Source of the DNA: a virus
Direction: 5' to 3' (one strand)
DNA length: 25,606 nt
IMG/VR virus record: IMGVR_UViG_3300036767_000497
Location: 1-25,606 of that record
The translations under genes were made by a program, and so were the position numbers. Of this stretch, positions 9,221 to 13,588 are shown one piece after another. Positions within the stretch are counted from its first letter, which is position 1. Each line of letters opens with the position of its first letter. A model generated the notes under the pieces. The model searched no databases. It saw only the letters and a list, made by a program, of their open reading frames with translations, and was not told where the DNA came from.

Positions 9221-10060
9221 TTAAAAAGCGTTAAGGGTAGTTATGTTTCCGCTTATTGTTATAATGTTACCAGTATATACTCCACCGTTTACCGGTAAGG
9301 TTATTATAGCAAAAAATTGACGCGGAAATGGTTGTATTCTAAAATAATAGTCGCCCGTATTTAAGCCGGAAATAGTCGCGTTATTAAATTTTACCTCTTC
9401 ACCCCGGCCGGACGGGTCTACGGGTACGCCGTCTTCCGGAAAGGGAACCCAAGATAACGAACTTTTATTATATAGGGACCAATCCGTCCTATCGTCTTCG
9501 GTAAAAAAACTATATTCCGGTTGGCCCATTGGCCCGGAATTAAAGGTAGTTTCTGTATCTATTTCTAGTAAAAACTGTAGCCGGGCATCTCTTATTGTTA
9601 TCGGGGTTAAAAAGTGGAAGACCATATCTTCGGTATTGGATTTAGGCTTTATTATTCTTTTGTCCGAAATTTCGGGTAATGTAAAGTCCACATTAGTATA
9701 GACCGTTTTACTTTCTGCGGTCCCCCCTTGGCTTACTTCATCGTATAAAGTTACTTCGATATTGATGTCTGTAAATTCTTGTTGTATGCGGAAGTCGGTA
9801 GGGCTATCCCAATGTATGGGAATTTCTTTATAACGGGGGGAGAGGTTAATGTTATCGTAATCTTGGCCAACCGTTGGCCGTAAGGTGGCGTCTTCCCAAG
9901 CCGAAGTCTCTTCGGAATAAAACCGAAGCCCCCCAATACTACACGGCATAGAATCCGGTTCCTTTACCTTAATAGTTATTATATGGTTATCGTCTATTTG
10001 TTCTATGGAAAGTATTTCCCATTTAAGCCGGGTTGGGGTTTTTGTTATTTTTATGGCCAT
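9221..10060 (-). CDS. Ig/FN3-like appendage protein ending mid-domain
   Basis: A 279-residue beta-rich protein of the decoration block. The middle and C-terminal parts look FN3-like (ATISGLNTGDYYFRI). The last ~25 residues (IITLPVNGGVYTGNIITIS) are the opening strand of a Big-type repeat and then stop, which leaves the domain incomplete. The missing part resembles the N-terminus of the 105-residue protein two genes upstream. It follows the 85-residue gene after a TAATATG junction without its own strong RBS, so coupling is likely. Confidence 0.6.
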   Translation of the reverse strand: MAIKITKTPTRLKWEILSIEQIDDNHIITIKVKEPDSMPCSIGGLRFYSEETSAWEDATLRPTVGQDYDNINLSPRYKEIPIHWDSPTDFRIQQEFTDINIEVTLYDEVSQGGTAESKTVYTNVDFTLPEISDKRIIKPKSNTEDMVFHFLTPITIRDARLQFLLEIDTETTFNSGPMGQPEYSFFTEDDRTDWSLYNKSSLSWVPFPEDGVPVDPSGRGEEVKFNNATISGLNTGDYYFRIQPFPRQFFAIITLPVNGGVYTGNIITISGNITTLNAF

Positions 10061-10061
10061 A

Positions 10062-10319
10062 TTAGTTTTGTCCCGGGGTTATAGTAAACTGTCGAACATT
10101 AGAAATAAGGCTTTCGTTTCCGTTTATATCCGCGATAATTACATAAACTTTTCTACCTTCCGGATTGCCGGAACCGTCAAAGTCCGCCAAAGTGCAAACC
10201 TTCGAAAATATTATATTTGGTCCGGACGGGGACGAAAACCCGCCCCCTAAAAAGTTGTCGTTTACCGGGTCCGGTTCGTTAGTATATGTTTGCTCGTAAT
10301 ATCTTATGCTAAAAATCAT
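10062..10319 (-). CDS. Small FN3/Ig-like appendage protein
   Basis: An 85-residue beta-rich protein whose C-terminal half (RKVYVIIADINGNESLIS) resembles the last strands of an FN3/Ig-like domain with the A-x-D-x-x-G-N-x-S signature. The glycine-rich centre (NFLGGGFSSPSGPN) may be a loop. It is linked by ATGA to the upstream gene and by two bases to the downstream gene. It may be one subunit of a multi-part fibre. Confidence 0.55.
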   Translation of the reverse strand: MIFSIRYYEQTYTNEPDPVNDNFLGGGFSSPSGPNIIFSKVCTLADFDGSGNPEGRKVYVIIADINGNESLISNVRQFTITPGQN

Positions 10320-10633
10320 TCTTCAGTAAGCCCCAATAAAACCAAAGACATTTCGCCTATAGACCAGTTTTCTAAATCCGATACTTTCATAGGCGAGGAA
10401 GTTATTATACCGGCTATTACTTCTTGGTTTTGTACGGCGTTGGAATTCCCGGCTAAATCTTCGGCTATTGGGTAAACATTCCACCGGCCGGCCGTCCAAT
10501 TTTCAGTAGTTACCGACCAATTCGGGGCCCCTTCTTGTACTGTTGTATCAATCCCTATTACCGTGTCTATATTTGGGTTAAATGTACTCGATAAGGTCCG
10601 ATATATTGTTACTTTTGTCGTATCTTGGGCCAT
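10316..10633 (-). CDS. Partial Ig-like appendage protein
   Basis: A 105-residue protein that starts in the middle of an Ig-like repeat: [17 protein letters not shown], then PNWSVTTENWTAGRW and VYPIAEDLAGNSN correspond to the same positions as the start of the 218-residue Ig-like protein. The C-terminal 30 residues are different (DLENWSIGEMSLVLLGL). It is coupled to the collagen-like gene by TAATG and to the next gene by ATGA, so it is probably made in equal amounts with them and used in one appendage. Confidence 0.6.
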   Translation of the reverse strand: MAQDTTKVTIYRTLSSTFNPNIDTVIGIDTTVQEGAPNWSVTTENWTAGRWNVYPIAEDLAGNSNAVQNQEVIAGIITSSPMKVSDLENWSIGEMSLVLLGLTEE

Positions 10634-11802
10634 TATTTAGCCGGAACGAAATAATACACGTTCCCCCCTATAGTTACTTTTAGCCTACCCTTATCTATAA
10701 TTATAGCACTTACGCCCGATAGGTGGCTATTACCAGTAGCACCGGTAGGACCGGTCGCACCTTGCGAACCAGTAGCACCGGCCGGACCGGTATTTCCTTT
10801 AACCCCATCGCTACCGGCGTCGCCTTTGGTCCCTTGGGGTCCAGTAGCCCCGGTAGTTCCTTGGTTTCCGGTATCGCCTTTAGCCCCGGTAGTTCCTTGG
10901 CTTCCTTCGTCCCCCTTTTCGCCCTTATCTCCTTTTCCGCCCTTGTCCCCCTTAAGCCCGGTCGTCCCTTGGGGTCCAGTAGAACCAGTAGCCCCGGGGT
11001 TTCCGGTATCGCCTTTAGCCCCGGTTGTCCCGGTGGTCCCTTGGGGGCCAGTAGGACCAGTAGAACCAGTAGCCCCGGTTGGTCCGCTTGGACCAAGAGG
11101 GCCAGTTGGTCCCCTATCGCCTTCCGGTCCTTGGGTCCCGGTATCGCCTTTAGTTCCTTGGGGTCCGGTAGGGCCGGTATTACCAGTATTCCCGGTATCG
11201 CCTTTAGTTCCTTGGGGGCCAGTTGGTCCGGTAGAGCCGGTATTTCCTTGGCTTCCGGTGTCCCCGGTATCGCCTTTAGCGGAAAGCTTGGCCCAATAAG
11301 TGGTAGAAGTGGAAGGGGTTTTATTTGTACCGGCTTTTATACCCACATAAGAAGAACCGTTATAAAATACCGCGTCGTCTATGGCGTAGGCCGTGCTACT
11401 ACTATAAGTTCCTTTCCATACCAAGCCTTCCGGTCCAGTACTTCCGATAGGTCCGGTATTTCCAGTAGGACCAGTAGAACCGGCCGGGCCGGTAGCCCCT
11501 TGGGGGCCTTGGGGACCGGTGGCCCCGGTTGGACCTTGCGAAGTCGCATTAACCGAAGCCGGACCAAAAGCCCGGCCTATATATTGGTGTAATTCGTTAA
11601 CGTCGCTACGAAGTTTTACTAATTCGCTACGTAAATTTTGGATAGCACCGTTAACACTTTTTAAGATACTTTCGTCGTCCGGTATATTCCCACTAACCAA
11701 AGGGCTACCGGCGTATTCCATAACCTTTTCCATTAAAGTAGTTTCGCTTATGTCTTTAGAAGTAAGCGAGTTTTTTAAAGTTATGTCATTGTCGAACGGC
11801 AT
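10633..11802 (-). CDS. Collagen-like fibre protein with inserted carbohydrate-binding-like module
   Basis: A 389-residue protein. Residues 45-80 form a coiled coil that could start a trimer. Two Gly-X-Y tracts follow: about 90-126 and 177-357, rich in G-P-T, G-A-T, G-D-T and G-D-K triplets. Between them, residues 128-175 hold a small aromatic module ([19 protein letters not shown] ... TYWAKLS) of the kind found in carbohydrate-binding module 5/12-like inserts of phage fibres. The C-terminal 30 residues form a short beta end piece. It should make a trimeric rod on the virion that may touch surface glycans. RBS AAAGGTG; stop/start TAATG with the next gene. Confidence 0.85.
10732..11535 (-). repeat. 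Gly-X-Y (collagen-like) coding repeats
   Basis: Nine-base periodic DNA coding for collagen triplets, interrupted once by the aromatic module (about 11278-11421). The antisense strand also reads open here, purely as a by-product of the repeat. Length variation by slippage or recombination would be expected. Confidence 0.85.
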
Positions 11803-11813
11803 ATTTTCACCTT

Positions 11814-12326
11814 TTACGATTTAGTTATTTTAATGTAGCCCCCATAAATTTGGTGGGCGGTTGAAGTAGTACCCACATAAATAGAAATATACTTAGCACC
11901 ATCAGAGTCGAAGTCGGTGGAATTTATTTCTACGTTAGTGTTTCCGCTTCCCTTTTGAACGGCAAGTCCGTTCGTAATCATACATTCGTAAATTTTAGTA
12001 TTTATAGTATGGGAACAGTTTATACGGAAGTGGGTAACCGTAAACCCCCTAGGTATTACAAAAGTGGCCACCATTTCCAAGGACGACGATTTTACTATCG
12101 CGTGGCCCCCGTAATTATTTAACGCGACATTATAATAAGAGTTGTCGCCATTAGGGCAAAAATCTCCCGGGGTTACAATAATTTGGGTCGGGTCTAATAG
12201 GTATCCCGCATCTGCTTTCTTACTGTAAACTTCGCCAAAATTATCGTTACACTTGTCGAAAGCGTCGCGTATAGTGTCGCCGGAATTAGTCCCGGCGGTT
12301 CCAAGGCTTATAGTTTGTTGGCCCAT
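11814..12326 (-). CDS. Fibre-associated structural protein with 'DNF' N-terminal motif
   Basis: A 170-residue protein. The N-terminus [19 protein letters not shown] followed by [11 protein letters not shown] matches a motif found at the start of many phage fibre and baseplate-attached proteins (G-T-A...G-D-x-x-R-x-A-F-x-K-x-N-D-N-F). The remaining ~125 residues are beta-rich and end GGYIKITKS, like a small receptor-binding or jelly-roll head. It stands between the Ig-like and collagen-like genes and likely belongs to the same appendage. The 109-base gap before it holds a long imperfect inverted repeat (CGGGC/GCCCG) but no gene. Confidence 0.6.
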
Positions 12327-12435
12327 TTATCCGGTTTTCCTTAAGGTTAAATTTCGGGCCACTAAATTAACGTGTAGTTAGTCTATGGCCATAATTCAGT
12401 AGCCCGAATAGTTAGGTAGATTCGTCTATTTCTTC

Positions 12436-13092
12436 TTATGAAGACGTACCGGTAATAGTGAAACTTGTTCCGGTAAATACGTAGCCGTTAGAGTGGCTTG
12501 TAATAGCCGGCGAACTTGGGGCCGTAGTATCTATAATAACCGAAAGGATACTACCATAACCACTATAACCGCCGGATTTATCCCTCCACCTTGCCCGGTA
12601 TTGATGGGTAGCATTTACTAAGGCCGAAGGTTCTTGCAATGTATATGACCATTCTTTCGTACTGCCGTTTACAACAATAGTCATAGATGAGTCTGCTACA
12701 TCGACAACCTTTGACCAAGACCCCGCCCCGGTTTTACGTTCTACTTCGTAGCGATTCAAAGATGCGTCCGGTGGTACTACCGAATTCGGACCGGTTAAAG
12801 TTACACCGGACTTTATCCTAGGCGTCGAATCGTTGGTTACGTTGTCCGAAGATGACGAACCGGAATCGTCTAATAGGTCTGGTAATGTTGGTGTAGTAGA
12901 GTCCCCCGATTTTAAATTTACAGTTGAAGAGGCCCCCGATTCATTCCCGGCCAAATCTGTAGCCTTGCCGGTAAGGGCGTGGCTTCCGGCCGAAAGCGTT
13001 AACGCTTTAGACCAGTTTCCGGAACCGTCTACGGTAGCCGTTCCTACTGATTGTCCTCCGTCGAAAAGTTCTACTGTTTTAGTGTCTGGCAT
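12436..13092 (-). CDS. Ig-like repeat fibre/decoration protein with split terminal domains
   Basis: A 218-residue secreted-style beta protein of a virion. The N-terminus MPDTKTVELFDGGQSVGTA is the middle of a bacterial Ig-like (Big) repeat, continuing through GNWSKALTL and TGKATDLAGNES. Then comes a Ser/Asp linker (DDSGSSSSDNVTNDSTPRI), an FN3-like domain (about 95-190), and a C-terminus FTGTSFTITGTSS that is only the first strand of another Big repeat. Thus the protein starts where its own end leaves off. The ATG has AAGGAA nine bases upstream, so the start is real. It probably decorates the tail or neck and may bind host surface sugars. Confidence 0.7.
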   Translation of the reverse strand: MPDTKTVELFDGGQSVGTATVDGSGNWSKALTLSAGSHALTGKATDLAGNESGASSTVNLKSGDSTTPTLPDLLDDSGSSSSDNVTNDSTPRIKSGVTLTGPNSVVPPDASLNRYEVERKTGAGSWSKVVDVADSSMTIVVNGSTKEWSYTLQEPSALVNATHQYRARWRDKSGGYSGYGSILSVIIDTTAPSSPAITSHSNGYVFTGTSFTITGTSS

Positions 13093-13105: not shown

Positions 13106-13264
13106 TTATTTGTTTAGTTGTTTTTTTACTTCATTCCATACGGTGTTATCTAATTTATTAGAAGACCTATCGACTAAATAGTCGCCTATCTTAATTAGTA
13201 CCGCTATAATAACCTTTTCAGTAAGTAACGCGGTGGCTATTGAACTTAATACCTTGGCTATCAT
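13106..13264 (-). CDS. Small amphipathic/membrane protein, 52 residues
   Basis: A short gene found by direct reading: ATG at 13264, AAGGA about eight bases upstream, stop TAA at 13106. The product begins MIAKVLSSIATALLTEKV, continues with a hydrophobic stretch (VIIAVLIKIGDYLV) and ends in a charged helix (KLDNTVWNEVKKQLNK). It lies between two well-supported genes with tight spacing. Such tiny proteins are common near phage lysis or tail genes; a holin-related role is possible but unproven. Confidence 0.65.
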   Translation of the reverse strand: MIAKVLSSIATALLTEKVIIAVLIKIGDYLVDRSSNKLDNTVWNEVKKQLNK

Positions 13265-13270
13265 AATGTT

Positions 13271-13588
13271 TTATCCTTGTTTTGTTTCCCATTTCCCGAA
13301 CCGGTGGCTTAATTCGTCTATATTCTTTTCGACATTTCTAAAGCCCCGGCTTACTTGGTCGGTTAAGCTTTTAAATTTTTCATTAGTAACGGCTTCTATT
13401 ACGTCTTGCTTTCTTTCTATTTGCCCTAATCGCCTATTCCACATATCCATATCGGTTTCGATTTTGGTTTCTAGTGTTCGCATATCCCGGTATAAAGACC
13501 TTAAAAGCGTTATAAAAGCGGAGAGGCTTACCGTAAAAACGATTTGTAAAACGATAAAAGCTACTTTCCATACGCTACCTATTTCCAC
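13271..13588 (-). CDS. Membrane-anchored coiled-coil protein (holin- or spanin-like candidate)
   Basis: A 105-residue protein starting at GTG (GAAGG six bases upstream). Residues about 7-27 form one hydrophobic membrane helix (WKVAFIVLQIVFTVSLSAFI), followed by a basic patch and a long heptad-patterned helix that runs to the C-terminus. One N-terminal membrane helix plus a coiled coil is seen in several small phage membrane proteins, including some holin-like and spanin-like ones. With the next small gene it may be the membrane part of the lysis system, whose peptidase is encoded 10 kb away. Inference only. Confidence 0.65.
   Translation of the reverse strand: MEIGSVWKVAFIVLQIVFTVSLSAFITLLRSLYRDMRTLETKIETDMDMWNRRLGQIERKQDVIEAVTNEKFKSLTDQVSRGFRNVEKNIDELSHRFGKWETKQG

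Follow-up and report, generated by a model that had tools for sequence, protein, structure and literature searches.

Proteins of a marine phage that start and stop within Ig-like domains are probably tail-appendage subunits joined by shared domains

Why do several neighboring proteins of a phage begin and end in the middle of Ig-like domains? The question is raised by a linear IMG/VR contig from a marine phage, 25,606 bases long, which is referred to here as the window. Genes for 218-, 170-, 389- (collagen), 105-, 85-, and 279-amino acid (aa) proteins sit between the tape measure gene and a putative tail tube gene, the latter called from its position and size only. All phage genes considered are on the minus strand, including those for the 218-, 105-, 85-, and 279-aa proteins, whose coordinates were as originally predicted (Table 1). 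In what follows, strands C-G at the start of a protein are referred to as its acceptor half and strands A-B at its end as its donor tail.

The same phage was found at at least 99.94% identity in IMG/VR contigs 3300005423_000004, 3300005509_000035, and 3300022227_000012, and a contig from a Rhodospirillaceae MAG carries it at 99.98% identity. Because these four further contigs repeat the window sequence, its unusual gene ends are not the result of an assembly error. The 35.9-kb contig 3300022227_000012 begins and ends within one metallophosphatase gene, which indicates a nearly complete genome and suggests that this genome is circular or permuted. The two end copies of the metallophosphatase (L071 and L072) differ slightly in their N-terminal sequence. 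No further Big_13 protein was found in the 35.9-kb contig, and the capsid relatives of the phage have essentially the capsid gene alone in common with it.

Table 1. Positions in the window of the proteins and proposed half-domains discussed in the text.
Feature	Coordinates	Strand	Evidence
218-aa middle protein: acceptor half (C-G) first, one complete domain, donor tail (A-B) last	12436..13092	-	Big_13 match; alignment with tandem repeats; cut as in the 309-aa family
Proposed acceptor half-domain of 218-aa protein (residues 1-60)	12913..13092	-	Glucodextran_B match to 39-82 of 83 positions alone; five strands in AF2 model
Proposed donor tail (A-B) of 218-aa protein (residues 190-218)	12439..12525	-	Similar to 279-aa tail beyond 5,000 shuffles
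170-aa protein with T4 gp9/10-like N-terminal domain (the DNF gene of the original prediction)	11814..12326	-	PF07880, E 0.0016; matches to cyanophage gp9
389-aa collagen-like tail fibre protein	10633..11802	-	Collagen PF01391, E 8.5e-35; PHROG tail fibre families
105-aa protein: acceptor half-domain (residues 1-72) and short tail; proposed next chain member	10316..10633	-	Partial Big_13 match
85-aa protein	10062..10319	-	ATGA overlap (10316-10319) with 105-aa gene
279-aa protein: apparently beta-rich body (by inspection only) and C-terminal donor tail; proposed donor-only member	9221..10060	-	Tail homology
Proposed donor tail (A-B) of 279-aa protein (residues 247-279)	9224..9322	-	Tail homology with 218-aa protein; gain in joined profile

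Two observations concern the surroundings of these genes. The collagen-like fibre (10633-11802) contains a non-collagen segment of 49 residues that resembles a carbohydrate-binding repeat. Directly before the 218-aa gene, the region 13106-13588 holds a small membrane-protein-like ORF (about 13106-13264) and a separate 105-aa protein with a weak match to Rz-like spanins; lysis-type genes directly ahead of the 218-aa gene are in an unusual place.

The 218-aa protein matched the Pfam profile Big_13 (PF19077) with an E-value of 4.2e-15 and a score of 56.5 bits (cut-off, 27). The best match begins at position 40 of the 102 positions in the profile, so the front of the domain is missing. When the protein was aligned with the tandem Big_13 repeats of an adhesin, its start fell just after the ..GTA/EPG.. 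linker, and its last ~29 residues corresponded to the front of a new repeat. By comparison with the 309-aa family described below, strand C lies at the start of the protein and strands A-B lie at its end. These results bear out the original prediction that the protein starts and ends in the middle of an Ig-like domain; the terminal piece, however, which had been taken for a first strand, comprises two strands, A and B, and the cut falls at the B/C loop.

An in-frame stop codon stands two codons upstream of the 218-aa ATG, the open frame exceeds the gene by only two codons, and the sequence upstream of that ATG shows no trace of former coding. The ATG of the 105-aa gene is also preceded at two codons by a stop, and therefore both starts are genuine. 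Structure prediction of single proteins had been proposed as a check; for the 218-aa protein the AF2 model was poor (mean pLDDT 58) and too uncertain for fold searches, and the acceptor half showed five strands at low to moderate confidence.

Like the 218-aa protein, the 105-aa protein begins at strand C. Its match to Big_13 was partial, with the front missing (E 0.0015; 19.4 bits, below the cut-off of 27), and the start of its gene overlaps the stop of the collagen gene by one base. The 279-aa protein gave no Pfam match and no PHROG match, but its tail resembles that of the 218-aa protein. The two tails align (ITSHSNGYVFTGTSFTITG / ITLPVNGGVYTGNIITISG) with a score of 44, compared with 42 for the best of 5,000 shuffles and 32 for the best other 31-mer in 13 window proteins; the 279-aa tail is about seven residues longer than the 218-aa tail. 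The partial Big_13 match and the tail homology agree with the earlier proposal that the 105-aa protein starts, and the 279-aa protein ends, in mid-domain, except that the latter ends ..VYTGNIITISGNITTLNAF, seven residues past the end previously quoted. The 85-aa protein might tentatively be read by eye as strands C-G of an FnIII-like domain, with the C terminus of the 105-aa protein as its strands A-B. It had no Pfam match either alone or joined to the 105-aa protein, and hhalign gave no support for a split FnIII-like domain.

When the halves were joined in silico, the domain matches grew. With either tail placed before the 218-aa start, the Glucodextran_B match was extended from 39-82 to 5-82 of the 83 profile positions, and the score rose from 28.6 bits for the start alone to 33.9 and 32.4 bits with the tails in front. 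The Big_7 score increased from 14.9 to 24.9 bits, passing the cut-off, when the 279-aa tail was placed ahead of the 218-aa start. The reverse order, with the start before the tail, produced no such profile gain. For the 105-aa start the gain was small or absent (19.9 bits alone, 20.9 with the 218-aa tail, and 18.8 with the 279-aa tail).

Phages encoding a 309-aa protein emerged from a scan of IMG/VR for Big domains. The first residues of this protein, MAVNTVRVQING.., belong to strand C, and its last, ..ITIAPNPVNVGQSYVITVDVSD, to strands A-B. Members of this family, about 300 aa in length, were found in Firmicutes-type phages and in archaeal viruses, with homologues at 35-49% identity in an Oscillospirales phage (L090), Methanomassiliicoccales virus vir215, Flavonifractor phages, and a gut phage. 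The starts and stops of these homologues align to within a few residues, with the exception of a Flavonifractor phage in which a fused C-terminal domain takes the place of the donor tail. A wider scan used patterns internal to the 309-aa protein, and therefore the ends of the family members were not selected for. In all 55 intact members, whose pairwise identities are 36-81%, the start deviates from the common position by no more than 3 residues and the stop by no more than 1. The tail has a conservation of 0.54, compared with 0.47-0.56 elsewhere in the protein, and an occupancy of 0.99. The family matched PHROG 11157 (E 7e-62), as did the 218-aa protein of the window (E 1.2e-10). The best solved structure for the family was the tandem Big repeats of SiiE (PDB 2yn3 and 2yn5), and a BFVD search returned generic multi-Ig proteins only. 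Judged from their sequences, at least 50 phages and archaeal viruses of quite different kinds have tail proteins cut within an Ig domain.

Relatives of the window's own proteins were far more restricted. In IMG/VR, relatives of the 279-, 218-, and 105-aa proteins came from the same phage only, as did relatives of the 279-aa protein in GTDB contigs, and the 279-aa protein was absent from 297 genomes of the host order, the phage contig itself excepted. The family profile found long continuous frames only (813-4,944 codons) in 385 genomes of the host class. A weak match of the 105-aa protein to Cellulophaga phage phi19:1 looks like chance, and a scan for the motif DLENW..EM, run with a pattern one codon short, matched unrelated genes. 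Against the 309-aa family, hhalign gave the 218-aa protein a probability of 93%, over one Ig half-domain only (50 columns), and the 105-aa protein a probability of 5.8%; BLAST with the L090 homologue covered 44 residues. The three window proteins are only distantly comparable with the family, and their kinship to it rests on generic Ig similarity. What the window shares with the family is the cut (start at strand C, end after strand B) together with encoded partner halves, and this match would speak for how the proteins work and not for their descent.

In the family, the missing halves are encoded nearby. Using half-domain profiles, donor-only (A-B), middle, and acceptor-only (C-G) proteins were found together in 44 of 60 loci. 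Exactly one of each was present in 37 of these, four had one or two more, and in the remaining three the donor was a 273-aa frame that had been counted as a second middle protein. Partner scores were typically 20-44 and 30-90 bits, compared with bests of 5.2 and 7.3 in a control of 3,803 ORFs from unrelated viral contigs. Missing partners were often accounted for by diverged small proteins or contig ends, and in contractile-tail phages a gpI-like baseplate protein takes the acceptor-only role. In the Oscillospirales phage (L090) the gene order is middle, acceptor, a 78-aa gene, donor, and tape measure, so that the set sits between tail proteins and the tape measure, and the roles follow one another in an order comparable with that in the window.

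Further observations were made in individual loci of the family. One locus (L095, 5001-6980) encodes two middle-type proteins in tandem, of 309 and 343 aa, an arrangement consistent with chains that vary in length. In L137, L149, L116, L093, and L096, the donor-only and acceptor-only proteins end in similar short peptides within one phage; these peptides differ among phages, both being ..YSGEVYSGEVDA in L137 and both W-rich in L096. The shared terminal peptides in several phages suggest that both end proteins may dock on one partner.

Two loci, L118 and L132, carry an in-frame fusion in which the donor protein precedes the start of the middle protein. Homologues in which the separate parts are continuous had been named as a check on the original prediction, and they exist in the family; the three window proteins have no close relatives beyond copies of this phage. 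The AF2 model of the L118 fusion, built with 48 sequences, had a mean pLDDT of 92.9 and a pTM of 0.78. Donor strands (residues 7-33) were modeled at pLDDT 93-94 and acceptor strands (57-115) at 93-96, with most of the linker at 53-66. A solved two-Ig chain aligned over residues 5-234 of the model (184 residues, 3.2 A), and three-domain SiiE aligned over residues 5-323. The model is as expected if the donor and acceptor strands form one domain, the pairing being read from these structure alignments. Together, these data show where the cuts lie, that a separate family conserves them strictly, that matching halves exist, and that halves are fused naturally in two loci.

We consider it probable that the proteins of the window and of the family are tail-appendage subunits joined by shared Ig-like domains, in the window in the order 279→218→105. 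Each contact would be a single beta-sandwich built from two proteins, to which one contributes its terminal strands A-B and the next its initial strands C-G. The 279-aa protein would donate to the 218-aa protein and the 218-aa protein to the 105-aa protein, giving donor-only, donor-plus-acceptor, and acceptor-only members, and repetition of the 218-aa unit could lengthen the chain. The 170- and 389-aa proteins are neighbors outside the chain and are not needed by the model. A location on the tail is suggested by the position of the genes between tail tube and tape measure; binding between separate chains and the order in the window are likewise what we infer from these data.

The original prediction that domains are completed between subunits has good support, above all from the same cut in independent phages, the partner genes, and the two natural fusions, but the pairings it proposed, the 218-aa protein with itself and the 105/85/279-aa unit with itself, are less likely than the chain 279→218→105. 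This chain is favored over self-pairing because related loci hold donor-only, donor-plus-acceptor, and acceptor-only proteins. It is true that middle proteins carry both halves and could form homopolymers, so that the A-B tail of the 218-aa protein, or of a 309-type protein, might fill its own start, within one molecule or between identical copies, with the other proteins unrelated. Such self-completion is nevertheless unlikely: it leaves the donor-only and acceptor-only proteins of the same loci unexplained, the A-B strands that precede the acceptor half in the L118 and L132 fusions belong to another protein, and in the window the other halves are carried by the 105- and 279-aa proteins. Nor do the ends look like the functionless partial terminal repeats that Ig proteins often carry. 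The window alone has four such ends, one of them with weak domain evidence, and might be dismissed as chance or tolerated raggedness, but in all 55 family members the start is constant to within three residues and the stop to within one, which makes this account scarcely credible.

It had also been suggested that a multi-repeat ancestral gene was broken, here when the collagen and DNF genes were inserted, leaving half-domains as remnants. Joining the 218-aa to the 105-aa protein over the two inserts would indeed rebuild a domain, as seen by inspection and with a small profile gain. This explanation fails to account for the start of the 218-aa protein and the end of the 279-aa protein, however, and the cut is also seen in many phages that lack such inserts, where both ends are kept and the tail is under the same constraint as the remaining protein; in L090 it falls between two overlapping genes, with no collagen or DNF insertion. 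We therefore regard a broken gene as very unlikely. Alternatively, programmed frameshifting or read-through might join the halves into one protein, as many junctions overlap by 1-4 bases and frameshifting is known to add Ig domains in phages (reviewed in PMC9022992). However, the acceptor gene begins between -11 and +11 nt relative to the stop of the middle gene, and each of the three relative frames occurs. In 19 of 30 cases the donor gene is downstream of the middle gene, 541-665 nt away in 18 and 2.4 kb away in one, so that their halves cannot be joined in order. The variable frames and remote donor genes, which also count against a broken gene, exclude frameshifting or read-through as a general explanation, and we give it the least credence of the alternatives considered.

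If subunits are indeed joined by shared domains, this would explain many short tail genes of unknown function that start or stop in mid-domain, and sequence alone would predict which neighboring gene products bind each other. It would represent a modular way for phages to join appendage parts, and natural split Ig pairs would be on offer as protein-joining tools. Annotation of proteins one by one would miss such shared domains. A search of open-licence papers found no account of Ig domains divided between phage proteins, or of virus parts joined by them, which is weak evidence of novelty. A broader reading, possible but in our judgment somewhat short of probable, is that tailed phages and viruses of archaea share a pilus-like assembly code without a chaperone, in which donor-only, middle, and acceptor-only proteins polymerise to variable length by way of Ig domains split at the B/C loop; the window phage would then be a far-removed or convergent case.

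Ig-like domains are known on phage structural proteins, in some cases appended through programmed frameshifting (Fraser et al. 2006, reviewed in PMC9022992). Those domains also decorate tail proteins and also involve gene junctions inside the Ig-bearing unit, but they are whole domains on one protein, whereas here one domain would be divided between two proteins. PHROG 11157 is a very long Ig-repeat profile (3,825 positions) with no function given and is silent on split domains. Bacterial adhesins of the SiiE type have the same type of domain, as tandem Big repeats, but all of their domains are complete in one chain.

In chaperone-usher pili, incomplete Ig-like subunits are completed by a segment of the next subunit (donor-strand complementation); the subunits miss their G strand, carry an N-terminal donor extension, and are handled by a periplasmic chaperone and an usher. 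A Pfam scan of 20 window proteins recognised no chaperone or usher. The proposed appendage resembles these pili in the donor-only, donor-plus-acceptor, and acceptor-only roles along the fibre, which are predicted here from sequence. It differs from them in that a pilus subunit receives one G strand from an N-terminal donor, whereas in these phages two strands, A and B, would be donated, in the window by a C-terminal tail.
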